This document shows, piece by piece, positions 11,659 to 29,628 of a stretch of DNA of 64,000 nucleotides. The notes below the pieces were generated by a model. The model searched no databases. It worked only from the letters and a program-made list of their open reading frames with translations, and had not been told where the DNA came from. The stretch spans positions 868,001 to 932,000 of the forward strand of contig NZ_JAUFQE010000001.1 in the NCBI RefSeq assembly GCF_030409755.1, in the 5' to 3' direction. A program made the translations under genes and the position numbers. Source of the DNA: Vibrio lentus. Lineage in GTDB: Bacteria > Pseudomonadota > Gammaproteobacteria > Enterobacterales > Vibrionaceae. Every line of letters starts with the position of its first letter. Position 1 is the stretch's first letter.

Positions 11659-11754
11659 GCATACCCAGAAAACGTACACACTGCAATGCCTACCAGATTA
11701 GAAATCCAGACATAATAATACTGCGCCTTATGCAAAATATTGGAGAAAGTAACT

Positions 11755-13027: not shown

Positions 13028-13291
13028 TTACATATCAACTTCACGAACAATTACATCATCTATTTCATTGTTTAATAATGTCACATGACTGCTATGAGTC
13101 ATGCCTCCTAAAGCTTGCGAATTTTTCATGTCATCCACATTCGTTAGACTCTTTTCAGAATATATTGCTCGTATATCTCCGCCGACTCTACCTGAAAAGG
13201 TAACATCATCGGTACTCAAAGAAGCATTAGCTAAGTTTGCAATAAATAAAAATGAACATAAAACGACCGATATATTAACAAACGACTTCAT
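13028..13291 (-). CDS. Small exported protein beside the fimbrial operon
   Basis: An 87-residue protein with a signal peptide (MKSFVNISVVLCSFLFIANLANA) and a short mature region beginning SLSTDDVTFSGRVGGD. GAGG 5 nt upstream fixes ATG 13291 over an in-frame GTG just before. The TFSG..G pattern faintly recalls the start of the mature pilin (ATFSGFVPG), so it could be a truncated or miniature fimbrial subunit, but the remainder does not align. It is on the same strand as the fimbrial operon but 540 nt past its last gene. Confidence 0.55.
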   Translation of the reverse strand: MKSFVNISVVLCSFLFIANLANASLSTDDVTFSGRVGGDIRAIYSEKSLTNVDDMKNSQALGGMTHSSHVTLLNNEIDDVIVREVDM

Positions 13292-13835
13292 AAACACCTC
13301 AAATGTAATTGGTTACATATGATAGTTTAGCTTATTCGCAGAAAAAAAGAAGTCAAATGCCTACCACCCACCCCTTCGTCCGTGAGTTAGATTTATAAAC
13401 GTTAATTTACAATGATTTTTTCAGCATGGTTCCATCCATAACCATCATAATAGCAACATAAATATGACCAAATACATTCATAAAAATTATACACATGTGT
13501 GACGTTAGCCATTTGATGGTAGTTAAACCTTAGGGAGAGACCGGAGAGTAAAGAGCTAATACATATCTTGCAGAACTTCATAATAGTTCAATGATTTTCA
13601 TATTAAGAAAATTTAAGTCTATCTATCTTCGTAATCTTTAATACCCTAACCTAAGATCTGGTATGTAAACAATGATTCTTGGCAACACTTGATTATTCAC
13701 ATCAACGTAAGCTATGCAAGATCATAGATGAAGAGTTAGACAGATTTAATCGAGTGCAAAAAAAAGCATCACCATACCTTATAAAAAATAGGTCTAGTAA
13801 TACTTTTAATATTTATCAAGTTATCGGTAAGAAGT
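13292..13835. other. Intergenic stretch downstream of the fimbrial operon
   Basis: 544 AT-rich bases. It contains the 10-bp palindrome ACACATGTGT (13491-13500) and presumably the promoter of the small exported gene. A 60-codon plus-strand frame (13679-13861) starts with TTG, has no ribosome site and runs into the LysM gene, so I do not call it. Confidence 0.5.
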
Positions 13836-14588
13836 TTATTCTAATACTTGACCAGGGATGATCAAATCAGGGTTTTCAATGTCATTGTTTTGAATAATAT
13901 CTTCTAAGTCAAAGCCATAGTCTCTACGTAATTGGTATAACCAATCCCCCTCTTTTACAACATAAGGTAAGCTTACTTTGTCTTCTACCTTTTCTTTTAG
14001 TTTTGTTTTTTTGTCAACATCTGTATCTACCCGACATTCATTTGTGTCAGGTTGTATTTGACATGCCCTACTTGAGTTAGTATTTAAAGAGTAAGGTCTG
14101 GTTTCAATGTCACCTGACGAGTTCCTTTCACTGCTATCAAAGAAGAAGTATGAAAAACCGACAACCACTTCTCTTTGATTCTGTCCGAAATCGTCATTCA
14201 AAACTTGGTTTAAAGCAACATTCATTCCAATGTTACTATTAATAGCGTACTCGGCAAGATATTCTATTGTTGGATATTTATCTTCTACTCCGAATCCTAC
14301 CTTTAAATCAAGTTTTTCTCCATCATGTATACTATAAAGTAAACCTAAATCAGGTATGTACTCCGAATTATCCAATAACTTGTAATGCTTGATACCTAAT
14401 TCCAATTGAAGTCGTTTATATTGGTAGAGAAAATAAATAGATTGAGAGTTCTCAAACATATCTCCATCAAAATTATACCCATAGTTTGCCCCTACCCCAA
14501 AAATATGAGCAGTTGGCTTCTCTGCAACCGCTGCACCGCTGGTTAGGAGTAGAAACATAAAACAAATATTATTAATTAGTCGGTTCAC
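13836..14588 (-). CDS. Outer-membrane-like protein with C-terminal LysM domain, last gene of the fimbrial operon
   Basis: A 250-residue protein. A signal peptide (ICFMFLLLTSGAAVAE) precedes about 130 residues of alternating polar/hydrophobic strands (IFGVGANYGYNFDG, REVVVGFSYFFFDS), typical of a small beta barrel. After a charged linker with two cysteines comes a LysM peptidoglycan-binding motif (YVVKEGDWLYQLRRDYGFDLEDIIQNND, ending IIPGQVL). It starts with GTG 14588 behind GAGG and overlaps the tip gene by 4 nt (GTGA), so translation is coupled. An outer-membrane protein anchored to the cell wall could brace the usher or stiffen the attachment point; this is inference. Confidence 0.7.
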   Translation of the reverse strand: MNRLINNICFMFLLLTSGAAVAEKPTAHIFGVGANYGYNFDGDMFENSQSIYFLYQYKRLQLELGIKHYKLLDNSEYIPDLGLLYSIHDGEKLDLKVGFGVEDKYPTIEYLAEYAINSNIGMNVALNQVLNDDFGQNQREVVVGFSYFFFDSSERNSSGDIETRPYSLNTNSSRACQIQPDTNECRVDTDVDKKTKLKEKVEDKVSLPYVVKEGDWLYQLRRDYGFDLEDIIQNNDIENPDLIIPGQVLE

Positions 14589-15712
14589 AGGTTCACCTCA
14601 TAAACAACATTAAACGATCCTTGGTAATTACCTGAACTGAGTGCATTTCCATCGACATCAAAACTAACGTCGTATGCTACATCAACTTTGTTACTTCCTT
14701 CCCCATTCACTGTAATCACTTCTGAATCAGGGAAAGATGTCGTATTAAGTATGCCGTCTTGAACTATCACCTTGTTAGGGCTCTCACAACCGACAGCACA
14801 AGTAATTGTGTAGGGTATCTTTTCTAGCGAGTTATCAATATTTGTAAGCTCATAGTCATCTGACGTAGGGCTAAACGTCATAATGACGCCTGTAGGTAAT
14901 GTCCCCAACAAGCTAACATCATACCTCGTTGTACCAGAGATCCTTTTTGTTGCAGTATCATACTGGGGTTCAATATTCCCATCTCCAAGTACCGTTAATG
15001 ATTCAAGGATCGCAGCTTGATAATCAATCGTGATAATTAACGTCTCCGGTACTCTGGTATAAGTCATCGTACCGGTTTGGCTTGTAAAAAAGTAAGTGGG
15101 TGAAAGGTTAATTGATGCCGTATAAGTTCCAGAACCAACAGGGGCTGCGAATACATCATTACTGATATTAGGCAAAGCGAAAACAGGTCGATAGAACTTA
15201 AACGGTTCGACTCGGCTTGATGCTACATAACCCATTCGTGACACGCACAAAGTCGATTCTTGTCCCACCTTTGCACTCGACCCACTTATATTTGTAGCTG
15301 CACACTCATTGGCAACTCCCATTCCCACATTTGACCCGTAGTCTTTTGATGTGAAATAACTAGCCGAGCTACCCAAATTGTACTCAACGCCTAACAACTC
15401 CAGGCTGGTGGTAAAACTTTCACCTGTAGAATGATTAACAAAGCTAACGTTATTAACGGGTTGGTTATCCATCGTTGCGGGATACCACTCTGCCGTTGGT
15501 TGCTCTTGCGCTATCGTCCATGCAGATGGAGATATAGCTTCACTACCGAAATAACTATTTGGCGCTGCATTGTTCCAAACCACAGAGTTGTTTGCTGTAA
15601 TCGTTCCGTATACATCTGCAGCATGGCTACTATCTAAAGCCGTGAATAATAGCGCTATACTAATTAGGCTATTTCTTTTTAATAGTGATATTTTTGTTAT
15701 AACTGTAATCAT
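14585..15712 (-). CDS. Probable fimbrial tip subunit/adhesin
   Basis: A 375-residue exported protein. After a signal peptide (SLISIALLFTALDSSHA) it is rich in Thr/Ser/Gly beta-strand sequence with pairs of cysteines (ANECAATNIS..TLCVSRMG; TCAVGCESP), and it ends in a fimbrial-subunit-like strand pattern (SGNYQGSFNVVYEVNL). Its position after the chaperone and its size, twice that of a pilin, match two-domain tip adhesins of alternate chaperone-usher systems. Its start overlaps the chaperone gene by 44 nt, with AAGG upstream. The family call rests on context more than on a motif. Confidence 0.65.
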   Translation of the reverse strand: MITVITKISLLKRNSLISIALLFTALDSSHAADVYGTITANNSVVWNNAAPNSYFGSEAISPSAWTIAQEQPTAEWYPATMDNQPVNNVSFVNHSTGESFTTSLELLGVEYNLGSSASYFTSKDYGSNVGMGVANECAATNISGSSAKVGQESTLCVSRMGYVASSRVEPFKFYRPVFALPNISNDVFAAPVGSGTYTASINLSPTYFFTSQTGTMTYTRVPETLIITIDYQAAILESLTVLGDGNIEPQYDTATKRISGTTRYDVSLLGTLPTGVIMTFSPTSDDYELTNIDNSLEKIPYTITCAVGCESPNKVIVQDGILNTTSFPDSEVITVNGEGSNKVDVAYDVSFDVDGNALSSGNYQGSFNVVYEVNL

Positions 15713-16373
15713 GGTTGGCTACCTTAACGGATAACGAATCGACATTTTGCAGGCCTTCTGATAATTTTATGGTTTTCTTTCGACCAGATAATATTGTATT
15801 AGTTTGTTTACATTTGTTACTAACAGAATTCGGTTTACAGTTATCAAACTGTATGTAGAAAAATGTGTTACCATTATTTTCCACATAAACTTCTGAACCG
15901 TTATATTTAACTTTGTAGTCAACATCAGCATTTTTTGCAGGTACAATATAATAAGGAGCATAACCATAATTAATACCAATTCTACTTTCTTTTTTATCTC
16001 CATCGATAACGCTAGGCATGAAAGTCACTTGATAAACTTTGTCCTTCTCTAAATCATCACAATTAACCTGACATAAATTCTTTACTGATACACGACGTCT
16101 TTCCCCCGGATTTAATATCAGTTTATTTGGTAATAGCGCAAGATCCCATAAAGGTAAATTATCTTTTGTTAGCTCTACCTTTTCTAACTCTCCGTTTTCC
16201 ACCTTTACTTGGCTAACGCTACCCTTTATATATTCAGGTTCAGTTTTTGAACTAGTCAGAGTAAAAACTCCATTACCATCTTCTCCAGCTATCAGAAGCA
16301 TTTTATCTATGCTGAATGCATGACTAAAAGAGCTCATCATTAATAGTATCGAAGTTAATATTACACGTTGCAT
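15669..16373 (-). CDS. Periplasmic fimbrial chaperone (alternate chaperone-usher type)
   Basis: A 234-residue protein with a signal peptide (MQRVILTSILLMMSSFSHA) and an N-terminal immunoglobulin-like domain in which VFTLTSS and LWDLALLPNKLILNPGERRRVSV match the G1 strand and the proline-glycine loop before it; the second domain contains VYVENNGNTFFYIQF. Such chaperones donate a strand to pilin subunits in the periplasm. I chose ATG 16373 because AGAGAAA lies 5 nt upstream, while the in-frame ATG at 16400 is inside the usher gene and would extend the signal. Two cysteine pairs (CQVNC; C..C) are unusual and may form disulfides. Confidence 0.75.
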   Translation of the reverse strand: MQRVILTSILLMMSSFSHAFSIDKMLLIAGEDGNGVFTLTSSKTEPEYIKGSVSQVKVENGELEKVELTKDNLPLWDLALLPNKLILNPGERRRVSVKNLCQVNCDDLEKDKVYQVTFMPSVIDGDKKESRIGINYGYAPYYIVPAKNADVDYKVKYNGSEVYVENNGNTFFYIQFDNCKPNSVSNKCKQTNTILSGRKKTIKLSEGLQNVDSLSVKVANHDYSYNKNITIKKK

Positions 16374-16386
16374 AATTTTCTCTATG

Positions 16387-19188
16387 TTAGTTATAAGCAT
16401 ATGGTGTCATCTCCATATGAACTGCATAATTAATTAGTTCATCGACATACAGTTTGTTTGCCGTAGTTAGTTGCTCTGGAGACTTAGCAAAAATATATAA
16501 ATAGTCTCCAAGTTTTTTATTTATAATGTCAACACCTGAGTCGTTAAGCTTGTTCTGATAGTTCAATACAATACTACTATCCTTGTATTGTCCCAAGTAG
16601 TAGTAATAAACGCCATCCACTAGAGCTATCTGATAACCTTCACTATTTTCTTCGAATGATGGCATACAGAAGTTATTACCTAAGTTCAAATTATTAACCG
16701 ATGATAGCTCCGGTATTACACATTGATTTTCCTTAGATATAATTTTGTAAGGTTGTTTATCTTTCACTTTAAATTGATACACACCTTCAACCAGTTTATC
16801 AGTAGAAACACAACCTCCACCGATACATTCAACCCCGTCGACCGGGTTTCCATTTATATCACTAAACGTCGATATAAATGATTTTAACTCTGACAACGAC
16901 GTGTCCAAACGAATAACGGTCCCAGGATAACTAGTAGCCGACGTATAAGACTCACCATTGTTATAAAAATCAGAAGCTTCCGTATCAAGCTTGAATTCAT
17001 ATTCATGGAATTCTTTTAACGGATATACTGTCAAAGCGTCTCCACTAACATAAGCGTTGCTTTGTTTTCCATTCTGCTCGGAGTTAACTACCGCCAAGAA
17101 CTTTCCGTCCGAAGATAACTCCCCTGTGTCATTATTTGAAATAAAATACGTAGATGATTTTTCACTCGTAAACTCTATTCCCTGAGATGTTACGATATTA
17201 CTTGTACCAATATATGCAGAAATACTTGTACTGCTACTTGAATTGACATAAGCATAGGAATTTGAGTCAATATACTTATTCTTATAATTCGCAGATAATG
17301 ATAAATCGGCACTGCTTTCGTCTTCAGTAGAATCTTGATAATAAAGACCCGCAGAACTTGATACATTTAAATTATTTCTGTTGATTAGACTACTGGTGAC
17401 TGTATCTCTATGCGATAGCGTAACATCACCACTATCATCTTTTTGTGCTTGTGTACTATGTGTATATGTATTTTTCTGACCTATTGGAATGATTATGGAG
17501 GCCATAACACCATAATTTATATCGCTCGATTCACTTGCTGATAACTCTAAGTTCACCTTTGAGTCCAGTGGTAATGATGATATCTGAACACCACTTCTTG
17601 CAGACCAGCTTTCTGATTCGTTGTTATAGCCATTACTAAAATCTTGATATTGGTTTTTTGTTAATATACCCGATATATATGATGATACATTCCTCGTTAA
17701 GTACTTGTTGTAGTTTACAGATAATGACATATAGTTCGAGTTACTGAATAAAAGGCGAGACAAACTGATATCACCAGTAATATTATCATTTTCACTATCG
17801 AACTTTGTGTAAGATACACTTAGGTTATAAATACCAACATCAAAGTTATAAAAACTAGAGCCATCGTCAAATAACCCTGTTACTGCAGATATCCTGGACA
17901 CTTCTCCTAAAGATAAATGACCACCAACATAATTATAATTGTCTTCCCCTGTAATAAACGAACCGGCACCCAGTGCGAAAAAATCCGTAACTTGATAGCT
18001 CAATTTCCCATTCGTGAACATTGGACTTTCATAATTATCATAAGCAAAGTTGATGGAGTTCTGGTCAAAATCGTCCTCTAGTCCCGTATTCGTCAGGTCT
18101 CTTGATAAATAACCGGCTGTAACATGATAATCTAGTTCTCCGGTTTTAATCGACGAAGAGTCTGTATTGACTATCAACCTATCTTCTGTATAAAACTCTT
18201 CACTGCCATCAAATATTCGAATTGTCGCAGTATAAGTCCCTAATGGTAGCTCGTTATAGTCAAAGTATTCTTGCCCTGCATCCACATTACGACTTAATAG
18301 AACACGGCCTCTATCATCATTGATTTCTAGTCGACCTGCCCTTGAAATGTTTAAATATACTCGTCTAGAAGTAGAAGATGATTTTTTTACTAGCTCTCTC
18401 GTCGATCCTATCGACAACATATAACCAGAAGTCTTACTACTATTTTCTAAAAACTGTGTACTATTCCAAGGACGTTCCTGGTATTTATACCCGACAGAAA
18501 AACGAGCGTTACCAGCAACATAGTTATATGATGAGTCATCTGAACTGAACCCATTGACATCACTAAAGTTTAGATCATTATGCAAATAGCCATACTTACC
18601 AAAACCTGCGTAGTTTTCATGTTGATAAGCATAAGTAGATGTATAATCAGCGTTGTCACTGTAAGAACCAGATAAATTTAGACCATGTGACATAATGACC
18701 GCATTTTGATCGATCTCTTCTTTTACAAATTCTAACTCAGGCTCTTCAATTATCTCTGTTAAGAATTGTGAATTGACATGAAGAATCAATGATTGGCTAT
18801 CTGGCACATAAACAAAGTCATATAAATCAGGTAGTAGACCACATTCACTTCGATAGCCTTTACAATCAAGGCTCGACTCAACCCCATTTACCAAAGTTGT
18901 TGCCATCGCATCGCTAACATCTTTCTCAATGCCAAGTTGATCCGCCAATCCTTGTGCTACAAGTTGTTTTTGTAAAATAGGGATTCTTACTTCATCACCT
19001 GAGGCAAAAGCTTCAGAATAAAATGATTTATTGTTATCCGCGGAAAGAATTAGCTGCATTCTTATCAGCTTCTCTTCAAACATGTCTTCAAAGCCTTCGG
19101 GAACATTTGCGAAGGATTTTGAACTATATACAATAACTGAAGAGAATATGATTAGTAAATTTAAACCAAACCAAAGTCTAATAAACAT
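16387..19188 (-). CDS. Outer-membrane fimbrial usher, TcfC/CS1-like
   Basis: A 933-residue protein with a signal peptide and a long strand-rich barrel. A TcfC-like E-set segment is visible (VYLNISRAGRLEINDDRGRVLLS, then YFDYNELPLGTYTATIRIFDG), which is diagnostic of ushers of the CS1/CFA/I (alternate) class. The C-terminal about 250 residues contain four cysteines (VECIGGGC, NQC, NNFC) in a plug or CTD-like domain. It threads chaperone-pilin complexes through the outer membrane. It overlaps the preceding minor-pilin stop by one to three bases (TAATG). The length is slightly above the 850-900 usual for the class. Confidence 0.8.
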   Translation of the reverse strand: MFIRLWFGLNLLIIFSSVIVYSSKSFANVPEGFEDMFEEKLIRMQLILSADNNKSFYSEAFASGDEVRIPILQKQLVAQGLADQLGIEKDVSDAMATTLVNGVESSLDCKGYRSECGLLPDLYDFVYVPDSQSLILHVNSQFLTEIIEEPELEFVKEEIDQNAVIMSHGLNLSGSYSDNADYTSTYAYQHENYAGFGKYGYLHNDLNFSDVNGFSSDDSSYNYVAGNARFSVGYKYQERPWNSTQFLENSSKTSGYMLSIGSTRELVKKSSSTSRRVYLNISRAGRLEINDDRGRVLLSRNVDAGQEYFDYNELPLGTYTATIRIFDGSEEFYTEDRLIVNTDSSSIKTGELDYHVTAGYLSRDLTNTGLEDDFDQNSINFAYDNYESPMFTNGKLSYQVTDFFALGAGSFITGEDNYNYVGGHLSLGEVSRISAVTGLFDDGSSFYNFDVGIYNLSVSYTKFDSENDNITGDISLSRLLFSNSNYMSLSVNYNKYLTRNVSSYISGILTKNQYQDFSNGYNNESESWSARSGVQISSLPLDSKVNLELSASESSDINYGVMASIIIPIGQKNTYTHSTQAQKDDSGDVTLSHRDTVTSSLINRNNLNVSSSAGLYYQDSTEDESSADLSLSANYKNKYIDSNSYAYVNSSSSTSISAYIGTSNIVTSQGIEFTSEKSSTYFISNNDTGELSSDGKFLAVVNSEQNGKQSNAYVSGDALTVYPLKEFHEYEFKLDTEASDFYNNGESYTSATSYPGTVIRLDTSLSELKSFISTFSDINGNPVDGVECIGGGCVSTDKLVEGVYQFKVKDKQPYKIISKENQCVIPELSSVNNLNLGNNFCMPSFEENSEGYQIALVDGVYYYYLGQYKDSSIVLNYQNKLNDSGVDIINKKLGDYLYIFAKSPEQLTTANKLYVDELINYAVHMEMTPYAYN

Positions 19189-19715
19189 TATAGCTGCAGC
19201 TCCACATTAAACGTAATACGACCATTACAATCTAATGGCTCATCACTCGGTATGTTTTTATTTGTTACTAATTCAAATTCATTGGTAGAGTTTTCATACC
19301 CAGTATTTTTAATATTATTAAATTCAAAATTTGGTATATCTAAAATATCAGAGTAATGCTTTTTATCGATATAGAGATCGACAAAGTCATCATACAGAGT
19401 CTCACCGCTATCATTGAAAACACATTTAGAAGTGAACTCTGATATGTTATAACTGTATTCAAAAGAATCCCCAGAGCTTGTTGGTATATTCGTTCTAACA
19501 TAAGAAAAAAACCGTCCATTTTGAAACGTTTCGTTCTCACGATCATACTTCAATACAATAAACTCATTAGATAGTTCTAGATTGATCGAATAGTCATATA
19601 AATTCGCTCTATTTATTTGTGTGCTTACTGGAAATAAATAACTTTCATAGCCAAAGCTATTGAAGCTAAAAATAAGAAGTGTTAATAAAAAGAGATAATT
19701 TATATATATATTCAT
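19188..19715 (-). CDS. Probable minor fimbrial subunit
   Basis: A 175-residue exported protein (MNIYINYLFLLTLLIFSFNSFG) with two cysteines in the mature part (SKCVF, LDCNGRITF) and a C-terminal strand GRITFNVELQL resembling the end of the major pilin. I chose ATG 19715, which has GAGG 9 nt upstream; an in-frame TTG at 19730 overlaps that site. It sits between the major pilin and the usher. A subunit role is inferred from position, size and the terminal strand. Confidence 0.6.
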   Translation of the reverse strand: MNIYINYLFLLTLLIFSFNSFGYESYLFPVSTQINRANLYDYSINLELSNEFIVLKYDRENETFQNGRFFSYVRTNIPTSSGDSFEYSYNISEFTSKCVFNDSGETLYDDFVDLYIDKKHYSDILDIPNFEFNNIKNTGYENSTNEFELVTNKNIPSDEPLDCNGRITFNVELQL

Positions 19716-19779
19716 TTTCAATAACCTCAAAAAAATAAGGCACTTAACTTAAGTGCCTAAAGAACAATAATATTTTTTC

Positions 19780-20310
19780 TTATGGCAAAGTTGCAATCAT
19801 ATCAACGTTAACAATAATTTCTGTACCAGCAATATCATCTGGAGTTGAGTGTGCAATATCGTTAGCAACATACAGTTGAATAGTTTCGCCTGAGGCAAGT
19901 TGAGTAGCAGATTGTACCTGTGCTTGATCAAGTTCCATGGTAGATACTTGGTCGCCTACTTTGATACTTGGTAGAATTTCAGCCATAGCTGCAGGAAGCA
20001 CATTCACTTGTGATACAGTCCAGTTTGCTGAGGTTAAAGCACCAACCGTCGAACCATCGTAGGCATGAGCTTCTAAAACTACTGGTTTAGTCGTTTCGAA
20101 CGTACCGTCAGCGTTAACCTGCAATGTACCGATGTAAGATGCAGAATCTGTATTACCGCCCGCACCAGTCACTAAGATCTCACCGTTTGCTACAAAGCCT
20201 GGAACGAAACCGCTGAATGTTGCAGCACCCGTTGAAGTATCGCCAGTTGCGGCAAAAGCAGGGACAGCAGTAATAGCAGACAGTAAAGTAATGAGTGTTA
20301 GTTTTTTCAC
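19780..20310 (-). CDS. Major fimbrial subunit (pilin)
   Basis: A 176-residue protein with a classic signal peptide (MKKLTLITLLSAITAVPAFA) and a mature domain free of cysteine with pilin-like ends (ATFSGFVPG at the N-terminus, TEIIVNVDMIATLP at the C-terminus). It is rich in Ala, Thr, Val and Gly. It starts with GTG 20310; the ribosome site AAGG is separated from it by a run of nine A, an unusual arrangement that could allow slipped-strand control of translation. It is the promoter-proximal gene of the operon, as expected for the most abundant subunit. Confidence 0.7.
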   Translation of the reverse strand: MKKLTLITLLSAITAVPAFAATGDTSTGAATFSGFVPGFVANGEILVTGAGGNTDSASYIGTLQVNADGTFETTKPVVLEAHAYDGSTVGALTSANWTVSQVNVLPAAMAEILPSIKVGDQVSTMELDQAQVQSATQLASGETIQLYVANDIAHSTPDDIAGTEIIVNVDMIATLP

Positions 20311-20319
20311 TTTTTTTTT
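20311..20319 (-). repeat. A9 homopolymer between pilin ribosome site and GTG start
   Basis: Nine T on the plus strand (A9 on the coding strand) separate AAGG from GTG. A change of one or two bases would alter the SD-start spacing without touching the protein. Confidence 0.85.
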
Positions 20320-20344
20320 CCTTCGATATATTTATATGTATTGC

Positions 20345-20361
20345 GTTAGCCTCTCGCTAAC
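20345..20361. promoter_or_regulatory. Inverted repeat upstream of the fimbrial operon
   Basis: GTTAGC-CTCTC-GCTAAC, 35-51 nt upstream of the pilin start. A further GTTAGC half-site lies near 20396. It could be an operator for one of the XRE regulators; this is a guess from position. Confidence 0.4.
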
Positions 20362-20781
20362 CAGCCAACACATATTATCCAACGAACTAAGTTTGAGGTT
20401 AGCAAGTTGAAATAACCGAACAACTTATATGCCTAGTCGATGCATTTTTTATAAATTCATTTATTTAGCAAATGAACGATATAATCTAAACACAAGATTA
20501 GCCCTATGCTTAACCTTGTGACTAGCATCAGTTGTTTATATCTATCGAATTTTCTGTCATGCCTAGATATAAATCGAAGTATGATTAGAAATAGTAAGGA
20601 AAATGACTATTTAATAATTAACAAAAAGCGAGAACTGTAGATCGTAATTAGGAACGTTGTTATGTACGATTCAAGCATTGAATCATCATGGAATATAATG
20701 ATCGACGTATTTTTAAGTTAACACTGATAGCTCCGATAAGTGTATTCAAGAAAGTAACGGACTTGGTCCCCCCCTGTTGAT
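20362..20781. other. Long divergent regulatory stretch between fimbria and lectin genes
   Basis: Part of 823 non-coding bases between the pilin and lectin gene 1. It is strongly AT-rich and should hold both promoters. A C7 tract (20768-20774) lies immediately before the start of the duplicated segment at 20782. No coding potential seen. Confidence 0.5.
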
Positions 20782-22685
20782 CTTACATTGATATGAATAG
20801 ACTGTCCTTAATACACGAGGACGTATAAAAATCCGATTTTAGTTAAGCTTTTTATTCGACATAGATAATTTTCACTGGAATTTACCAGTAACGCCAATCG
20901 CCTTAAGTTTTGACTATCGAACACAATATTCATTCAACCTCATATTATTATTTTTGATTTGGACTATGCCATATGCTCCCTACCCAAAACTGAGCGCTAG
21001 GCATATTAACAACCTCCTTATGAGTGCGTGCTAATTTCAAGCCGTTTTGCCTTGTTACTATACGCAACCTAGATATAGAGACGGTAATGTCTAGGTTTTA
21101 TGCCCATAACATTCACTAATGAGTATTTAATACATGATGAGAATAAACACATATGCACCTTTTCATAAGTTATCCCTGTCAGTAGCAATATCATTAGCTC
21201 TGTTTGGGTGTGGTGCATCTAACGACGAAGCAACAACTAACTCCAAACCTGAATCTTCAACGTCAGGAGGGACTCTGTATTATGCTCAGGATATCATCCG
21301 TCAAAGCACTCCAACAGATACCTTTTTTGTTGACTTGTCGAATGGCATGGAATCATCTGATGATTCATCGGTTACATTAACGACAGTGACGCCTTTAAAT
21401 GATAACTATAATTGTGATGTCATATCCCAAAATGCCAATGGCTTCACTATTAGCGCTCAAAATGCAAAAGTGTGTGACTACCGCTATCGAGTTGGCGCTG
21501 TAGCATCTGCTGACATCATGGCGAGCTCTCATAGTAACTACGGAGAAACACCTATTAGCGCTACTTCAGCAACATCAGCAACATCAGCAACATCAGGGGA
21601 TGGTTTTGCTGAAGCAACGGTTCGTGCTGCTGTCGGCGAATCAACGGAGCAGCTTGTACCGATTTCTGGAATGACCTCTTCTTTCACATCAGTACCAATA
21701 GATATTACTAAAGAACTAGGCGACGCAGGCTACTCTCTAGACACAAGCACATATACGTTAGCAACATCGGTTACATTGCCCAATGGTGATACGACAAATT
21801 CAACTGCGATTGCAAACACATCAACTAATACGATTGATTACACCCCCGGGAATGGTATTCCAAGCGGCGTAGAACGGATCCTCTACACATACAGTGATGG
21901 GTCCAATGTGCTGGCTGGCAGTATTGATATCGCAGTCTCTACAGACACAAACAGTGCACCAGTAGCCGAATCTATCAGGAAAACCAGTTTTATAGACCCA
22001 GACTCTGGCGATGAGGTGTCTAAAGCCCCTTATGGCAAGGAGTTAAGATTCGATATAGGCGATCTTATAAGTGATCCTGATGGCGACACTCTTCATCTCG
22101 TTGACGTGCATAGCTTCGGTTCGACAATTGTGATTCCGAGCGATGCGAACAATGATGGTAATTTGTTCAATGATACAGAGTTTGATTTCACTAGCACCCA
22201 ACCAGGTGAGACCTCTATATCCTATGTTGTATCTGACGGTAAAGGAGATTATGCGACAGGGGTTATCCAAGGTTACGTCGGTAACCCGTATGAGCCAATA
22301 GTCTCAACAAGTATCTATCTACCACCGCTACTGTACGCAGATGCTCAAGATGCTTCGATTTCATCTACACCTCAAGTAGGTAACGGTACTACCGCTTTAA
22401 ATGGGATCAAAACGGCATCTCATGACTGGGACACCGCCAATTACTTATGTCTAGCAAAAAAAGCTCGATTACCAAGTACTAGCGAGCTTCAAAGACTATA
22501 TGATGATGGCAATACTAATGGCGATTTGTTTATTAACCATAATTGGCCAGTTGATATTAATTATTGGGCTTCTGACCAAGGAACTGGTGGTTCTAATTAT
22601 CACCGCTCCGTAAATATGTCTAATAAAGCTATTAATACGAATGATGCCAATTCGAGTATTCGTTATACTGCTTGTATCGATGAAA
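20782..22685 (+). repeat. Copy 1 of a large tandem duplication (leader plus lectin gene body)
   Basis: From CTTACATT at 20782 the sequence matches 23469 onward at a constant offset of 2687 bases through about 350 bases of leader and most of the coding region; after the serine/alanine/threonine repeat the offset is 18 smaller. Near-identity ends at about 22686, where the lectin-tip sequence begins. Confidence 0.9.
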
Positions 22686-23110
22686 CTCCTCCGGGGTATC
22701 CAGTTAAATACCTAGGTTACAACTCTGGGACTAAATACCTTTTTGATGTGCGTATCGACACATCTATTTATTTCCGTTGCGGTGCCGTTGTCGATGCGAT
22801 GTACCAACCGGGAGGAGCCCGTATCGGGGGTACTGGAGGGTCTGCAGCCTCTGTGGTTGTGAGAGACGTAGGTCAAATAGCAACTAAGTATGGATATTGG
22901 AGACATGGTAATGGTTACGACATGACTAATGTAAGAATGTGGGATCGAAGTGGCAAAAAAATACTCGATTGTGGTACTGGCTCATATAACGACGGAAATA
23001 CTCAATATTCTTCCAGCTATACCTTAGCCCCAAACGAAATATTAACTGGCTTTGAGGCTAGAGGAGACTCTTTCCTCAATGGGTTCGAACTTTGGATACA
23101 TGTACTTTAA
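21134..23110 (+). CDS. Surface lipoprotein with C-terminal jacalin-like lectin domain, copy 1
   Basis: A 658-residue lipoprotein. The lipobox LFGC puts the acylated cysteine at residue 26, with Gly at +2, so outer-membrane placement is expected. A Ser/Thr-rich region (including four SAT units) and an Ig-like stretch are followed by a cadherin-like module at about 270-390 (SFIDPDSGDEV, ISDPDGDTLHLVDV, ISYVVSDGKG). Next is an adhesion-type module (CLAKKARLPSTSELQRLY, YWASDQGTGG) and a final about 130-residue jacalin-like lectin domain (GGARIGGTGG, NVRMWDRSGKK, ILTGFEARGDSFLNGFELW). It probably binds glycans at the surface. It is almost identical to copy 2 up to residue about 518. Confidence 0.8.
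   Translation: MMRINTYAPFHKLSLSVAISLALFGCGASNDEATTNSKPESSTSGGTLYYAQDIIRQSTPTDTFFVDLSNGMESSDDSSVTLTTVTPLNDNYNCDVISQNANGFTISAQNAKVCDYRYRVGAVASADIMASSHSNYGETPISATSATSATSATSGDGFAEATVRAAVGESTEQLVPISGMTSSFTSVPIDITKELGDAGYSLDTSTYTLATSVTLPNGDTTNSTAIANTSTNTIDYTPGNGIPSGVERILYTYSDGSNVLAGSIDIAVSTDTNSAPVAESIRKTSFIDPDSGDEVSKAPYGKELRFDIGDLISDPDGDTLHLVDVHSFGSTIVIPSDANNDGNLFNDTEFDFTSTQPGETSISYVVSDGKGDYATGVIQGYVGNPYEPIVSTSIYLPPLLYADAQDASISSTPQVGNGTTALNGIKTASHDWDTANYLCLAKKARLPSTSELQRLYDDGNTNGDLFINHNWPVDINYWASDQGTGGSNYHRSVNMSNKAINTNDANSSIRYTACIDETPPGYPVKYLGYNSGTKYLFDVRIDTSIYFRCGAVVDAMYQPGGARIGGTGGSAASVVVRDVGQIATKYGYWRHGNGYDMTNVRMWDRSGKKILDCGTGSYNDGNTQYSSSYTLAPNEILTGFEARGDSFLNGFELWIHVL
21561..21599 (+). repeat. 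In-frame 9-nt tandem repeat in lectin gene 1
   Basis: TCAGCAACA-type units encode repeated Ser-Ala-Thr. Copy 1 has two more units than the equivalent place in copy 2 (near 24250), a difference of 18 nt or six residues. Confidence 0.85.
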
Positions 23111-23468
23111 TTTGTATCAATACCCTTCACTAAGGAAGCATGGATATTTCACGCTAAGCAAGCGGCTAATATCTTAGCGGAAGGTATGAAAGAACACATA
23201 ACAACGTCGATTAGCACAATCTAACATATATAGCCCCCCCCTTATCTAAGCAACACTGAGGGTGGTATTTATAGAATGGATATAAATCGATAAACTGGCA
23301 AGCATCAAACACCTGATATTAAGATAGTATATTGAGATAGTTATACGGCTGCTTTATATACATTAAAATAGTAATAAAGTAGCACTCTCATACGTTCATA
23401 ATTTAAACATGGTTATTGCATTTAACCCTCATCGTATATAATTAAAACATGGTCACGACCAGGTTGAA
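23111..23468. other. Spacer between lectin genes holding a decayed Pmp3-leader copy
   Basis: The segment from about 23275 to 23460 resembles 25948-26130 (for example ATAAA..GATAAACTGGCA, then CA..AAACAC.TGATA.TAAG), although with many differences, and it ends just before the duplicated leader restarts at 23469. It therefore looks like a duplication junction. A C8 tract lies at 23234-23241. No gene is present; the pmp3-type reading frame is not preserved. Confidence 0.7.
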
Positions 23469-25352
23469 CTTACATTAATATGAATAGACTGCCCTTAATA
23501 AACGAGGACGTATAAAAACCTGACTTTAGTGAATCTATTTATTCGACATAGATAATTTTTACTGGAATTTATCAGTAACACCAGTCGCCTTAAGTTTTGA
23601 CTATCGAACACGATATTCATTCAACCTCATATTATTATTTTTGATTTAGACTATGCCATATGCTCCCTACCCAAAACTGAGCGCTAGGCATATTAACAAC
23701 CTCCATATGAGTGCGTGCTAATTTCAAGCCATTTTGCCTTGTTACTATACGCAACCTAGATATAGAGACGGTAATGTCTAGGTTTTATGCCCATAACATT
23801 CACTAATGAGTATTTAATACATGATGAGAATAAACACATATGCACCTTTTCATAAGTTATCCCTATCAGTAGCAATATCATTAGCTCTGTTTGGGTGTGG
23901 TGCATCTAACGACGAAGCAACAACTAACTCCAAACCTGAATCTTCAACGTCAGGAGGGACTCTGTATTATGCTCAGGATATCATCCGTCAAAGCACTCCA
24001 ACAGATACCTTTTTTGTTAACTTGTCGAATGGCATGGAATCATCTGATGATTCATCGGTTACATTAACGACAGTGACGCCTTTAAATGATAACTATAATT
24101 GTGATGTCATATCCCAAAATGCCAATGGCTTTACTATTAGCGCTCAAAATGCAAAAGTGTGTGACTACCGCTATCGAGTTGGCGCTGTAGCATCTGCTAA
24201 CATCATGGCGAGCTCTCATAGTAACTACGGAAAAACACCTATTAGCGCTACTTCAGCAACATCGGGGGATGGTTTTGCTGAAGCAACGGTTCGTGCAGCT
24301 GTCGGCGAATCAACGGAGCAGCTTGTACCGATTTCTGGAGTGACCTCTTCTTTCACATCAGTACCAATAGATATTGCTAAAGAACTAGGCGACGCAGGGT
24401 ACTCTCTAGACACAAGCACATATACGTTAGCAACATCGGTTACATTGCCCAATGGTGATACGACAAATTCAACTGCGATTGCAAACACATCAACTAATAC
24501 GATTGATTACACCCCCGGGAATGGTATTCCAAGCGGCGTAGAACGGATCCTCTACACATACAGTGATGGGTCCAATGTGCTGGCTGGCAGTATTGATATC
24601 GCAGTCTCTACAGACACAAACAGAGCACCAGTAGCCGATTCTATCAGGAAAACCAGTTTTATAGACCCAGACTCTGGCGATGAGGTGCCTAAAGCCCCTT
24701 ATGGCAAGGAGTTAAGATTCGATATAGGCGATCTTATAAGTGATCCTGATGGCGACACTCTTCATCTCGTTGACGTGCATAGCTTCGGTTCGACAATTGT
24801 GATTCCGAACGATGCGAACAATGATGGTAACTCGCTCAATGATACAGAGTTTGATTTCACTAGCACCCAACCAGGTGAAACCTCTATATCCTATGTTGTA
24901 TCTGACGGTAAAGGGGGGTATGCAACTGGGGTTATCCAAGGTTACGTCGGTAACCCGTATGAACCAATAGTTTCAGTAGATATCTACCTACCACCGCTAC
25001 TGTACGCAGATACTCAAGATGCTTCGATTTCATCTACACCTCAAGTAGGTAACGGTACTACCGCTTTAAATGGGGTCAAAACGGCATCTCATGACTGGGA
25101 CACCGCCAATTACTTGTGCCTTGCCAAAGGAGCTCGATTACCAAGTACTAGCGAGCTTCAAAATCTATATGATGATGGCAATACTAATGGCGATTTGTTT
25201 ATTAACCATAATTGGCCAGTTGATATTAATTATTGGGCTTCTGACCAAGGAACTGGTGGATCTAATTATCACCGCTCCGTAAATATGTCTAATAAAGCTA
25301 TTAATACGAATGATGCCAAATCGAGTATTCGTTATACTGCTTGTATCGATGA
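23469..25352 (+). repeat. Copy 2 of the large tandem duplication
   Basis: Matches 20782-22685 with scattered substitutions and one 18-nt shortening. Divergence starts abruptly after the codons for DETPPGYPV. Confidence 0.9.
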
Positions 25353-25767
25353 AACACCTCCGGGATACCCTGTACAGTTTTGGGGCTATAATACTGGTAG
25401 TGATTATTTATTTGACACTCGTATTAACTCAGAGGTTGTGTTTAAGTGCGGTGGTATCGTCGATTCAATATCTCAAGTTGGAGGAGAGCATATTGGAGGG
25501 AGTGGAGGACATACTACATTCGTCATAAGTATGATCGACGTCAGAACAATAAAAACCACCTGGGGAAACACAAATTTTGGTAACACTATAGCTAGAATTG
25601 AGATGTGGGATGAAGGTAATACAAAATTAATGCAATGTGGCAACGGTGATATCTCAGGGTACTCTAGCGACTCATATACACTAAATTCTGCTGAAACATT
25701 GACTGGATTTAGAGCTTTGGGAGGCTCATACGTTAATGGGATTGAACTCTGGATCGATCATCTTTAA
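23821..25767 (+). CDS. Surface lipoprotein with C-terminal jacalin-like lectin domain, copy 2
   Basis: A 648-residue paralog of the 21134 gene with the same signal peptide, lipobox cysteine (26), Ig/cadherin-like and adhesion modules. Within about the first 510 residues only a few positions differ (for example D/N in FFV-LSNG, S/R in TN-APV). The last about 130 residues are clearly diverged but keep the jacalin-like pattern (GGEHIGGSGG, RIEMWDEGNTK, LTGFRALGGSYVNGIELW). Both have the same upstream leader, so they probably share regulation. The pattern suggests duplication followed by replacement or fast evolution of the sugar-binding end. Confidence 0.8.
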   Translation: MMRINTYAPFHKLSLSVAISLALFGCGASNDEATTNSKPESSTSGGTLYYAQDIIRQSTPTDTFFVNLSNGMESSDDSSVTLTTVTPLNDNYNCDVISQNANGFTISAQNAKVCDYRYRVGAVASANIMASSHSNYGKTPISATSATSGDGFAEATVRAAVGESTEQLVPISGVTSSFTSVPIDIAKELGDAGYSLDTSTYTLATSVTLPNGDTTNSTAIANTSTNTIDYTPGNGIPSGVERILYTYSDGSNVLAGSIDIAVSTDTNRAPVADSIRKTSFIDPDSGDEVPKAPYGKELRFDIGDLISDPDGDTLHLVDVHSFGSTIVIPNDANNDGNSLNDTEFDFTSTQPGETSISYVVSDGKGGYATGVIQGYVGNPYEPIVSVDIYLPPLLYADTQDASISSTPQVGNGTTALNGVKTASHDWDTANYLCLAKGARLPSTSELQNLYDDGNTNGDLFINHNWPVDINYWASDQGTGGSNYHRSVNMSNKAINTNDAKSSIRYTACIDETPPGYPVQFWGYNTGSDYLFDTRINSEVVFKCGGIVDSISQVGGEHIGGSGGHTTFVISMIDVRTIKTTWGNTNFGNTIARIEMWDEGNTKLMQCGNGDISGYSSDSYTLNSAETLTGFRALGGSYVNGIELWIDHL

Positions 25768-26125
25768 AGTTCCCTCAACGTTAATCTATTGTTCTTTTGA
25801 CGTCAATCTGCAGTTTTGTAGCTGATTTGACGCAAAGAATTAGAATATACTCTAGGGCGCCATCTACTTGCTAGTCGCCCTTTCCCGTTGACCACATTTC
25901 GGCTTAACGTCCCCTTTATCTATAGCCATTTCCCCCAGAACTAACAAATGGTTATAAATAGATAAACTGGCAGGCATTAAACACTTGATACTAAGCTAAT
26001 ATCTTGAGATGTTTAAGCGACTGTCTTCTATACATAAAGACAGCAATGCATTAACACTCTCCAGACGTTCTATAATATGAGCACGGTTACCGCATTGAAC
26101 TTTCATTGAATAAAAAGGATTTATC
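25768..26125. other. Intergenic stretch between lectin gene 2 and the Pmp3 gene
   Basis: Contains the right copy of the 28-bp repeat (25941-25968) and the leader of the Pmp3 gene. A palindromic AGGGCGCC..GTCGCCCT segment near 25854-25882 may act as a terminator for lectin gene 2, but it lacks a convincing T-run. Confidence 0.5.
25941..25968 (+). repeat. Right copy of 28-bp direct repeat bounding the accessory island
   Basis: Identical over 28 bases to 9452-9479 and in the same orientation. The bases after it (GGCAGGCATTAAACAC) belong to the Pmp3 leader and are not found after the left copy. Confidence 0.9.
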
Positions 26126-26284
26126 ATGAACAAACTCGTCATTATCATCTTATGTGTACTGCTTCCACCTGTTGGTGTGTTCTTCGCTCGCGGCGCCGGG
26201 AAAGATTTGGTGATTAATATCATTCTTACTTTCTTCTTCTGGGTTCCAGGAATGATCCATGGTCTGTGGGTAGCCACCCGCTAA
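26126..26284 (+). CDS. Pmp3/YqaE-family small membrane protein
   Basis: A 52-residue hydrophobic protein. It begins MNKLVIIILCVLLPPVGVFF, followed by a charged GAGKD turn and a second membrane segment (VINIILTFFFWVPGMIHGLW). The LLPPVGVF, GKD..INI and PG.IH.L sequence is the Pmp3 (YqaE/Snt) signature. Such two-helix proteolipids sit in the plasma membrane and are linked to salt and osmotic stress. AAGGAT lies 6 nt before ATG 26126. It is too short for most default gene callers. It marks the first core gene to the right of the island. Confidence 0.85.
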   Translation: MNKLVIIILCVLLPPVGVFFARGAGKDLVINIILTFFFWVPGMIHGLWVATR

Positions 26285-26393
26285 CCCTTATTTACAAATA
26301 GATACCGAATAAAATATCCATAAAAACAAGCTCCTAGCCCTGAAGAGTTAAAAATAGGATGAAATGAAAGTGCTTTTCCACTATCATCCTGTC

Positions 26394-26439
26394 GCCTAAA
26401 CGTAAGCGATTGCTTTCACAGATTTCGCTGAGTTTAGGC
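26394..26439 (+). promoter_or_regulatory. pyrC leader: PurR-like box inside a large inverted repeat
   Basis: ACGTAAGCGATTGCTT (26400-26415) matches the PurR consensus ACGCAAACGTTTGCGT at 12 of 16 positions. It overlaps the left arm of an imperfect inverted repeat (26394-26409 with 26425-26439, GCCTAAAC.. and ..GTTTAGGC). PurR controls pyrC in enteric bacteria; the hairpin could alternatively act in the mRNA. Confidence 0.5.
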
Positions 26440-26476
26440 TCCAACTACATAACACTTCAAATGGTGGGAGCCTTCA

Positions 26477-27505
26477 ATGACACAACTTACGATTACTCGT
26501 CCTGACGACTGGCACGTTCATCTACGCGATGGCGAAGTATTAAAAGATACAGTCCGCGATATCAGCCGCTACAATGGTCGAGCGTTAATCATGCCAAACA
26601 CCATCCCACCGGTAACCGATACCGAAATGGCTCTTGCTTACCGTGAACGCATCATGGCAGAGCAGCCAAGTGAACAGTTCCAGCCTCTAATGGCACTTTA
26701 CCTAACAGACAACACAACACCTGACGAAATTCGCAAAGCGAAAGAATCTGGCGCTGTTGTAGCGGCGAAGCTATACCCTGCTGGCGCGACGACAAACTCG
26801 GATTCAGGCGTAACTTCAGCTCAAAAGATTTACCACGTGTTAGAAGCGATGCAAGAAGTGGGTATGTTGCTGCTTGTACACGGTGAAGTAACGGCTCACG
26901 ATGTTGATATCTTTGACCGTGAAAAAGAGTTCCTAGACACAGTTCTAGCACCGATTGTTAACGATTTCCCTAACCTGAAGATCGTTCTAGAACACATCAC
27001 GACGGCAGATGCAGCGACTTTCGTTAAGAACGCTAACGAGAACGTAGCGGCAACCATCACAGCTCACCACTTGCTTTATAACCGCAACCACATGTTGGTT
27101 GGCGGCATTAAGCCACATTTCTACTGCCTACCTATCCTTAAGCGCAACACACACCAGTTAGCACTTATCGAAGCGGCAACAAGCGGTAGCAAGAAGTTCT
27201 TCTTGGGTACAGACTCTGCGCCACACGCAAAAGGTGCTAAAGAGTCAGCATGTGGTTGTGCAGGTTCTTACACAGCGCACGCTGCGGTTGAACTGTACGC
27301 TGAAGTATTCGATTTAGAAGGCAAGATTGAGAACCTAGAAGCGTTCGCGAGCCACAATGGCCCAGACTTTTACGGCATGCCACGTAATGCAGACACCATC
27401 ACTCTTGTTAAAGAAGAGTGGAATGTTGCTGAAACGATGCCTTTCGGTTCAGACATTGTTGTGCCAATCCGTGGCGGCGAGACGATTGCTTGGTCTGTAA
27501 AATAA
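26477..27505 (+). CDS. pyrC: Dihydroorotase
   Basis: A 342-residue class II dihydroorotase of normal length. The zinc-binding HVH (residues 13 and 15, in [10 protein letters not shown]), the carboxylated lysine in [13 protein letters not shown], the LLVHGE and EHITT histidines and the FLGTDSAPH aspartate are all present. It closes carbamoyl-aspartate to dihydroorotate in pyrimidine synthesis. GGTGGGAG precedes ATG 26477. It is monocistronic with a strong terminator, and a PurR-like box and a hairpin lie in its leader. Confidence 0.97.
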
Positions 27506-27542
27506 GCGCTTGGGCTGTTAAGTAAACGCCTTCCATTTAACG

Positions 27543-27582
27543 AAAAGGGTCACCATAATAATTATGGTGACCCTTTTTTTTT
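27543..27582. terminator. Terminator after pyrC
   Basis: AAGGGTCACCATA pairs with TATGGTGACCCTT around a short AT loop, followed by nine T. Confidence 0.9.
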
Positions 27583-27620
27583 CGATGAAAGACTGTCTTA
27601 TTATAAAAAATAATTAACGA

Positions 27621-28526
27621 TTACTTACCGCGTATTTTTCCAATCGCAGTCCAAACAGCAACGACAATCAATCCAGCTAAAACCCCAATCACACCATTTA
27701 ATAGCGTCGGTACCACCGCTGTCGCGATCGTATGTCCACTAAAATCCATAATAATAGGTTCAATTAAATGATGAATCGCGGGAACGTTGTGCACCACAAT
27801 ACCGCCACCAACCAAGAACATCGCAGCTGTACCGACCACAGCAAGCATCTTCATCAGCTTTGGTGTAAAGGCGACTAACCCATTACCCAATCTAGTTTTA
27901 ATGGTACTCCCATTCGATGTGCGCTGGAGATAGAAACCTAAATCATCCAACTTTACGATCCCTGCCACTAAGCCATAAACACCAATCGTCATCACAACGG
28001 CTATCAAACTCACGACAAGAATCTGAGTAAGGATACTTGTACCCGTTACGGTACCTAACGCAATCACAATGATTTCCGCAGATAATATGAAGTCGGTACG
28101 AATCGCGCCTGAGACCTTTCTCTTCTCATATTCCTCTATGGATTCGCCAGTACTCGTATCCTCTTCCTTCTCGCCATCTTGATGAGCATGAGGAAAGAGC
28201 TTCTCTAAGATTTTCTCCGCCCCTTCAAAACAAAGAAACAGACCACCAATCACGAGAAGTGGCATGATCAACCAAGGGATGAACGCACTGATCAATAATG
28301 CCGCCGGAACCAAAATCAGCTTATTTTTAAATGAGCCTTTTGCGACCGCCCATACCACTGGGATTTCTCTTTCAGCAGAAACACCGGATACCTGCTGAGC
28401 ATTAAGGGCTAAATCGTCACCCAATACGCCTGCGGTTTTTTTAGCTGCCACCTTAGACATCAGTGCGACATCATCCAACACGGTTGCAATGTCATCTAGC
28501 AGTGTTAATAAACTTGCTCCAGCCAT
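27621..28526 (-). CDS. DUF808 (YedI-like) inner-membrane protein
   Basis: A 301-residue protein starting [40 protein letters not shown], the signature of the DUF808/YedI family, with at least six hydrophobic segments (for example [32 protein letters not shown]). A charged cytosolic loop with [22 protein letters not shown] lies in the middle. Function is unknown; a transport or channel role has only been guessed for the family. It is monocistronic, divergent from the M14 gene. Confidence 0.85.
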
Positions 28527-28701
28527 TTTATTGTCTCTTTATAAAGGATTGAACCATCGATGAAATGTAACATCATCAATTCACTCATCAAAGTTATGAG
28601 TCTGTAAAAAATAAAGTCACAAGTTGTGTTTTCTATTGCTGTCTCTGTTAGACAGGAATAATCTGTCTTAATCTTTCACGAACATAAAAGAAAAAGTATA
28701 G

Positions 28702-29628
28702 ATGAAAAGTGAATCTACCTACCCAATTGGTAAGCCAGGACAAAAGTGGCAACAAGCAGAACGTGAAGCATGGTTTGCTCAAAGAACAGTTAAGCGTGAA
28801 TACCAACAAGAAGTTGTGCCAAAGATTAAAGCACTTGCAGACCGTTTTGATATCGAACAATACGGTGCACTGAGCTACGACCAAGCTCGCTTCCCACTTT
28901 TCGCAATTAAGAGCAAAAACTGGGATGAGTCAAAGCCGACCATTCTCGTTACAGGTGGCGTTCACGGTTACGAAACCAGTGGTGTGCATGGCGCTATCAA
29001 ATTTGCAGCGACCCAAGCAGAGAAATACACAGTGCACTTCAACATTGTAGTAGCACCTTGTGTAAGCCCTTGGGGTTACGAGGTGATCAACCGCTGGAAT
29101 CCAAATGCTGTTGATCCAAACCGCTCTTTCTATGACGGTACGCCAGCAGAAGAATCAGCAAACCTACTAGCTTTAGTGGCCTCTTTGCCAGAAGTATTGG
29201 TTCACGTTGACCTACATGAGACGACAGACTCTGATGAAACTGAATTCCGACCAGCACTCGCTGCTCGTGATGGTATTGAGTACATCGAAGGTATGATTCC
29301 AGATGGGTTCTACACGGTTGGCGATACAGAAAATCCGCAACCAGAATTCCAAGCGGCAATAATTGCTTCAGTAGAAAAAGTAACGCACATTGCGCCTGCG
29401 GATGACGAAGGCAAGATCATTGGTTCAGACGTCACTCAACACGGTGTGATCAACTACCCAATGAAGAAGCTTGGCTTATGTGGCGGCGTGACCGACTGTA
29501 AGTACGGAACAACCACAGAGGTTTACCCAGACAGCGACAAAGTGACTGACGAAGAGTGTAATGACGCTCAAGTTGCTGCTGTAGTCGGTGCTTTGGATTA
29601 CGTAATTCAACATGAATTGAACGCGTAA
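28702..29628 (+). CDS. M14-type zinc metallopeptidase/deacylase-like protein
   Basis: A 308-residue cytosolic protein (no signal). The zinc motif HxxE appears in VTGGVHGYETSG and the third ligand in VHVDLHET; NRWNPNAVDPNRSF is the substrate-binding arginine segment typical of M14 carboxypeptidase and succinylglutamate desuccinylase/aspartoacylase relatives. It probably removes an amino acid or acyl group from a small substrate. The ribosome site is weak (AAAAAGT). Ends before a bidirectional terminator. Confidence 0.75.
   Translation: MKSESTYPIGKPGQKWQQAEREAWFAQRTVKREYQQEVVPKIKALADRFDIEQYGALSYDQARFPLFAIKSKNWDESKPTILVTGGVHGYETSGVHGAIKFAATQAEKYTVHFNIVVAPCVSPWGYEVINRWNPNAVDPNRSFYDGTPAEESANLLALVASLPEVLVHVDLHETTDSDETEFRPALAARDGIEYIEGMIPDGFYTVGDTENPQPEFQAAIIASVEKVTHIAPADDEGKIIGSDVTQHGVINYPMKKLGLCGGVTDCKYGTTTEVYPDSDKVTDEECNDAQVAAVVGALDYVIQHELNA

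Follow-up and report, generated by a model that had tools for sequence, protein, structure and literature searches.

Within a 64,000-nucleotide stretch of the Vibrio lentus genome (hereafter the window), we studied two tandem genes, A and B, that encode predicted lipoprotein adhesins and lie beside a pilus operon. Both are intact open reading frames: A occupies 21134-23110 (658 amino acids) and B occupies 23821-25767 (648 amino acids). Together with its leader, each gene divides into the following parts.

20776-21133, forward strand: leader of A, ~94-95% identical to 23463-23820 (leader of B)
21134-22695, forward strand: constant body of A (lipobox, Ig-like domain, InvE_AD; Pfam Big_9 and InvE_AD), synonymous divergence (dS) from B 0.068
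22696-23110, forward strand: beta-prism lectin tip of A (Pfam, 30.5 bits; PDB profile match)
23463-23820, forward strand: leader of B (DNA alignment with leader of A)
23821-25364, forward strand: constant body of B (DNA alignment with A; Pfam domains)
25365-25767, forward strand: beta-prism lectin tip of B, ~46% identical to the tip of A (Pfam, 22.7 bits, under the cut-off)

DNA homology between the two copies begins at 20776 and 23463, ~358 bp 5' of each ATG, and ends at 22695 and 25364, with 1842 of 1920 alignment columns identical (96%). Directly past this point, identity per 60-base step drops from 57/60 to 34/60. These data bear out what a sequence-only reading of the locus had described, a near-identical leader and body followed by an abrupt change to different lectin ends; the abruptness stands, and the location of the switch is here corrected to ~22695 and ~25364, near residue 521 of A and residue 515 of B. 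At the switch, dS rises 27-fold, from 0.068 in the body to 1.84 in the tip, indicating that the tip difference is not due only to fast protein evolution. Since this step is seen in synonymous sites, the tips and bodies of A and B have separate histories. Nonsynonymous divergence (dN) between the tips is 0.51. Those base differences that remain in the body fall in clusters (P = 0.019 by the longest identical run and 0.0013 by the squared-run statistic), which suggests patchy gene conversion, a process that would leave such a pattern and to which variable constraint could contribute. An assembly artefact was ruled out, given that the two copies differ in DNA and that the 5.9-Mb genome was assembled in three contigs, of which the one holding the window measures 1.95 Mb. 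Within the body, at 21559-21610, an in-frame 9-bp repeat encoding Ser-Ala-Thr makes A two units (6 residues) longer than B. An Rfam search of 13000-29000 matched no family, and a terminator scan returned one site, fewer than the shuffled mean of 3.1, and was not used.

Both proteins carry an LFGC lipobox with the conserved Cys of bacterial lipoproteins, and this residue, Cys26, is invariant across 12 aligned family bodies. The constant part further contains a Big_9 Ig-like domain and a terminal InvE_AD domain (Pfam; residues 423-514 of A). Plasmid annotation names such proteins DUF823 adhesins. InvE_AD overlaps Lcl_C matches and, weakly, Lectin_C (E = 0.016-0.067, three relatives), and we read it as probably C-type-lectin-like.

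The tips had been taken for jacalin-like lectins. Their membership among the beta-prism lectins holds by profile: tip A lies above the 25-bit cut-off of PF16458 and tip B below it, and a profile built from three tips (A, B, and that of V. jasicida) matched the PDB entries 4gx7 (E = 1.7e-10) and 5v6c (E = 1.2e-9). The likeness to jacalin is more distant. All ten solved sequences matched by this profile (1.7e-10 to 6.5e-9) are named hemolysin (HlyA), cytolysin, or hemolysin-related protein, the match being to beta-prisms of Vibrio hemolysins, and jacalin-type lectins were reached only at E = 0.07-0.1. The same profile matches 29 of 227 Vibrio genomes, that of V. lentus included. The three aligned tips all have one Asp (residue 554 of A) and a GGxGG loop in common, and this Asp aligns with Asp 34 of chain 5v6c. 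The entries 5v6c and 6mlt, for which the PDB title is 'Hemolysin-related protein', correspond to RbmC and Bap1, and by arithmetic from the length of RbmC, Asp 34 is probably RbmC D853. In PMC10102183, D853 is described as a key N-glycan-binding Asp of RbmC. A predicted full-length model of A, made from a 4-row alignment, had a mean predicted local distance difference test (pLDDT) score of 48.9 and was not used for fold searches. A and B would be displayed at the cell surface, and their tips would be expected to bind different glycans. A large plasmid (L052, G000:C3:199651-200016) encodes a further beta-prism lectin protein in a 1456-residue frame, and a related gene occurs on a V. crassostreae plasmid.

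With A as query, family members were found in 26 of the 227 Vibrio genomes at an E value of 1e-20, the V. lentus genome included; a diverse body profile detected members in 50 of 329 Vibrionaceae genomes, representing 3 of 13 genera. This survey scored at most four candidates per genome, and copy numbers are therefore lower bounds. Family proteins were compared for 68 of 69 members, the partial L086 protein being left out. Recognised tip classes comprise beta-prism and CBM96 domains, and Lcl_C or InvE_AD ends also occur. Profiles of two tip classes that lack a recognised domain gave no PDB match at E values up to 1. Genomes and loci are identified below, where needed, by G and L numbers.

Comparisons between genomes show that bodies and tips have separate histories and that the replaced segments are single blocks, which include the tip and end within ~140 bp past the stop codon. 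When plasmid pHLB of V. parahaemolyticus is aligned with a V. jasicida contig, a 7.0-kb stretch at 97.6% identity is followed by one replaced block and then by 5.0 kb at 96.9%. This block extends from ~codon 349, taking in the InvE_AD domain and the tip, to 138 bp past the stop codon. The V. jasicida adhesin ends in a beta-prism, no domain is recognised at the end of the pHLB adhesin, and the two ends align at only 13-19%. Since six plasmid records all carry the pHLB form, they add no further tip. Single-block replacements were also found on chromosomes: from codon 563 in G218 compared with G024 or G047, from codon 484 in both G120 versus G014 and G003 versus G139, and from codon 477 in G073 versus G079. 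In these pairs the left arms are 90.6-94.9% identical, and homology (77-91%) returns 55-85 bp past the stop codon, at or just inside the next gene. The tips of G218 and G024 are both CBM96 domains and 42% alike, so that exchange at this site took place within one family. A second adhesin locus of the V. lentus genome (L049, near another usher) is mostly 93-100% identical to that of the sister genome G203 outside the tip region and 61-84% identical within it.

The separation of tip from body extends across the family: near-identical bodies bear sequence-unrelated tips, and one tip class occurs on different bodies. At one chromosomal locus sampled in 11 species, two tip classes (6 and 5 members) are 64-98% identical within and 25-34% identical between classes. 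Placed on the body tree, for which the fused G041 protein was trimmed to its first 799 residues and the truncated G029 was excluded, the two classes need five changes, the maximum possible for 6 versus 5. Three of the eight inner branches of this tree are fully supported, including those of the sister pairs G073/G079 and G003/G139, each of which holds both tip classes. Among 83 usable protein pairs, which remained from 103 once 20 involving the truncated L099 or fused L100 protein were dropped, 48 have bodies at least 80% identical; identity falls by at least 30 points in the last 130 residues in 31 of them and by less in 17, related pairs not being independent events. Seven further pairs share a common tip (67-75%) on bodies of 44-48% identity. 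In eleven pairs with decoupled body and tip, A/B included, tip dN is 0.26-0.99, compared with 0.02-0.08 in four same-tip controls. For the ten such pairs other than A/B, body dS is 0.03-0.27 and tip dS ranges from 0.45 to saturated; tip dS in the controls is 0.11-0.76. The expectations that tips would be shuffled and that divergence would concentrate at the C-terminus were thus supported, the former between genomes, by block swaps and two alternating tip classes, the latter in 31 of 48 pairs rather than in all. In those 31 pairs divergence is not uniform along the protein, the pattern that would have counted against the sequence-only reading.

The adhesin genes also occur as tandem copies elsewhere. 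Pairs like A and B are present in G139 (copies 2 and 3) and in two of three copies each in G015 and G092; they are 92-100% identical over the first 400-600 residues and 33-60% identical thereafter. The three adhesins of G139 (L037, C1:3240000-3257000) form a mosaic, in which copy 1 is unlike copies 2 and 3 in mid-protein (56-76%) and similar again later (88-100%). The G003 pair was left out of the tandem flank comparison because its flanks overlap. In G041 (L100:3956-8689), two tandem adhesin genes form one 1577-residue open frame, as if the intervening stop codon had been lost.

The adhesins are linked to pilus genes. Divergent from A, the operon at 13836-20310 contains a CS1-type usher and comprises the following genes.

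13836-14588, reverse strand: terminal LysM protein of the pilus operon (Pfam LysM); a LysM gene stands at the same place in plasmid pHLB
14585-15712, reverse strand: probable pilus tip or minor subunit, from position only (no Pfam match)
15669-16400, reverse strand: probable pilus chaperone, from its position beside the usher (no Pfam match)
16387-19188, reverse strand: CS1-type usher (Pfam CooC_C, 67.2 bits; TcfC, 42 bits)
19188-19730, reverse strand: pilus-operon protein with no assigned role (open reading frame; no Pfam match)
19780-20310, reverse strand: probable major pilin, from position only (no Pfam match)

Other than the usher, only the LysM protein of this operon matched Pfam, those tested gave no NCBIfam match, and roles were assigned by position. 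Counting the Vibrio rows of the body-profile survey plus one row of the A-query search, with the other two genera left out, a CooC_C usher is found no more than 30 kb from 62 of 82 family members; conversely, 41 of 51 such ushers have a family member within that distance. At the level of genomes, an usher is present in 23 of the 26 that contain members by the A-query search, compared with 39 of 227 overall (hypergeometric P = 4e-18, uncorrected for relatedness; one second piece of a G042 gene was dropped). The adhesin is placed after a CS1-type pilus operon on four plasmid types; for the adhesins of pMBL287, no usher was listed beside them within the stretch examined. The association with a fimbrial operon that had been suggested for this locus alone is therefore a conserved one. 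EAL-domain genes recur beside such pilus-adhesin modules, at L083, at L088, and in the window at 9624-10403.

We consider it likely, with a probability of roughly three in four, that A and B are members of a lipoprotein adhesin family of the Vibrionaceae that joins a conserved body to an exchangeable C-terminal end, travels with a chaperone-usher pilus operon of the CS1 type (alpha, class 5), and acquires tips imported by recombination. The conserved N-terminal part would provide a lipid anchor, an Ig-like stalk, and often InvE_AD, and the end would be a carbohydrate-binding domain, as it is in recognised cases. Homologous recombination in the conserved body, together with the conserved 3' flank or the next gene, could import tips from other strains. 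A and B would be a tandem duplicate whose bodies were kept alike by recent duplication or gene conversion, with one tip replaced or both tips having diverged long ago. Tandem copies may give one cell several binding specificities. The lipid-anchored stalks would display the tips, and lipoprotein and pilus might jointly attach the cell to surfaces.

The genomic setting bears on how the pair arose. A, B, the pilus operon, an EAL-domain protein, and two helix-turn-helix (HTH) regulators sit in a 16.5-kb island beside pyrC, between perfect 28-bp direct repeats.

9452-9479, no strand assigned: left 28-bp direct repeat, with a perfect copy at 25941-25968
9624-10403, reverse strand: EAL-domain protein (Pfam EAL, 97 bits)
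10702-11658, forward strand: HTH regulator 1 (Pfam HTH_3)
11740-12765, forward strand: HTH regulator 2 (Pfam HTH_3)
23275-23441, no strand assigned: 3' flank of A, a degraded version of the flank on the pyrC side at 25941 (direct alignment; in 9 of 13 relatives, that flank is 75-79% identical to it)
25941-25968, no strand assigned: right 28-bp direct repeat; pyrC lies beyond it, at 26477

The repeat occurs only twice in the 5.9-Mb genome at up to three mismatches, and no integrase was recognised in the island, as judged from the open reading frame listing. We compared the pyrC site among genomes using window pieces between 5000 and 36000 that were longer than 150 bases. Most relatives have one repeat copy and lack the island: a single exact copy is found in 11 of 13 relatives, G042 has one copy with five mismatches, and G192 has no copy within five mismatches. 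The outer flanks of the island are joined directly in G015 and G023; in G204, G019, G183, and G213 a MOSC-domain gene adjoins pyrC. G203 carries a shorter island at this site (L119), with the EAL and first HTH genes only and without pilus or adhesins. In V. crassostreae (G042) the pilus operon is 89.5% identical and is accompanied by a single adhesin in the opposite orientation with an unrelated tip. The interval between the two genes contains, in degenerate form, a second copy of the island's right end together with ~170 bp of the pyrC-side flank, indicating that the duplicated unit was ~2.67 kb with the flank included. This noncoding flank copy is ~76% identical and the A/B body 97%, a disparity that points either to an old duplication with homogenised bodies or to arrival of the 3' end together with a new tip.

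Several observations weigh against import of tips onto a conserved carrier. The V. crassostreae adhesin body is only ~43% identical to A, so the whole gene differs at the orthologous site; given that it differs throughout and is inverted, the whole gene was replaced there. The tandem copies of G003 are alike only at residues ~350-500 (92-94%) and otherwise diverged, and those of G120, G218, G024, and G047 are diverged over their full length. Control tip dS, at up to 0.76, overlaps the lowest decoupled pairs (0.45 and 0.62), and separation is clear in dN. For 20 of the 82 Vibrio members, no usher stands on the same contig within 30 kb. Searches of plasmids with tip A, and of 227 Vibrio genomes with the tip profile, yielded no close donor of either tip; plasmids were not searched with tip B by itself. 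Finally, exchange in the V. lentus lineage itself was not directly seen, the comparisons being with other genomes.

For A and B alone, a partly overlapping account is that the duplication is old, that repeated gene conversion homogenised the bodies, and that the two tips are ancient and were never exchanged. The flank behind A, at ~76% identity to that behind B next to a 97% body, favours this account, as do the clustered body differences. However, the flank has diverged less than the tip (dS 1.84), and true tip replacement at one locus is seen in other genomes. We regard this account as unlikely, although it fares best among the alternatives.

Less probable still is cassette-type antigenic variation within one strain, in which A and B would exchange sequence, mutually or with silent copies, and so change which lectin is exposed. 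The 1.9 kb of 96% identity offers a recombination substrate, and the clustered body differences suggest past conversion. The sequence-only reading had likened the arrangement to such cassette swapping between copies; the logic fits, but the anatomy does not, and the variation observed lies between genomes. When the genome was searched with protein A, with PF16458, and with the tip profile, the hits were A, B, and segments of other long open frames; none was a partial copy that could serve as a silent donor, although donors with an unrelated tip and no body would escape these searches. A and B are both complete and have the same leader. At three loci examined for shufflon sites, we found 6, 2, and 1 inverted pairs, which are weak (75-88% complementary) and scattered, with no repeated site at the tip boundary, and no shufflon recombinase was noted in the open reading frame listings. 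Crossing-over between A and B would be expected to keep the set of tips and to lose or add a copy, not to switch expression.

Duplication alone, with positive or relaxed selection later acting on the tip and no recombination, is improbable. The tip is the likely ligand-binding part and its dN is high, at 0.51, but neither the 27-fold synonymous jump at a single point nor the unrelated tips between intact flanks elsewhere follows from point mutation, and the dS step and block replacements already largely contradict this proposal. A diversity-generating retroelement is likewise disfavoured, the tips differing by indels and near-saturated synonymous sites; no reverse-transcriptase profile search was made. 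A polymorphic toxin, with the variable end as the toxic domain and an immunity gene next to it, is very improbable: such toxins likewise pair a constant N-terminus with a C-terminus that switches sharply, and some tip classes have no recognised domain, but the recognised tips are lectin or carbohydrate-binding domains, the next gene in many arrays is a further adhesin rather than an immunity gene, and at least ten tandem arrays have only 2-18 bp between a stop codon and the start of the following adhesin frame (open reading frame coordinates), leaving no room for one.

Returning to the family with exchangeable tips, a wider proposal seems to us finely balanced. It holds that these are open-ended polymorphic glycan-binding adhesins, in which one pilus-tied carrier, sometimes on conjugative plasmids or islands, bears apparently unrelated carbohydrate-binding ends that homologous recombination moves between species, while selection for the choice of host or surface preserves old tip alleles as trans-species polymorphisms.

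Known systems share parts of this design. Polymorphic toxins (CDI, Rhs) are constant carriers with an exchanged C-terminus; the adhesin tips, in contrast, are carbohydrate-binding where recognised, and several arrays are too tight for immunity genes. PapG, like FimH, is an allelic fimbrial adhesin, and both are pilin-type subunits of one fold, whereas the A/B family varies a separate lipoprotein whose ends can be sequence-unrelated. CS1/CFA-I type (class 5, alpha) pili have the same usher with CooC_C and TcfC domains; the CS1 operon is not known to include linked lectin lipoproteins. PMC3373541 describes FimH as a case of allelic variation of binding within a constant fimbrial operon. RbmC, Bap1, and the VCC lectin domain belong by profile match to the same beta-prism family as the tips of A and B. 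According to PMC10102183, RbmC and Bap1 are biofilm proteins whose beta-propeller binds matrix polysaccharide; in A and B, the prism is instead the terminal domain of an Ig-stalk protein with a lipid anchor, encoded next to a pilus operon. The closest functional parallel among the systems considered is the PilV shufflon of IncI-type plasmids, with a constant N-terminus, a swappable C-terminal adhesin end, and a pilus setting, the ends being inverted in place by a recombinase (PMC9045228). That system holds a local set of invertible ends, whereas no such array was seen in the adhesin family and its variants reside in different genomes.

Among the best-ranked matches to broad literature queries, which covered few subscription papers, we found no report of this adhesin family, its plasmids, or tip exchange in Vibrio. 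Allelic series and shufflons are established cases in which adhesin ends are exchanged. In the present family, block replacement of the binding end on one carrier is directly legible from aligned genomes of several species and from conjugative plasmids, usually near the same kind of pilus operon. The family offers a natural collection of binding domains on a single scaffold, and makes testable how vibrios change their association with hosts or surfaces.

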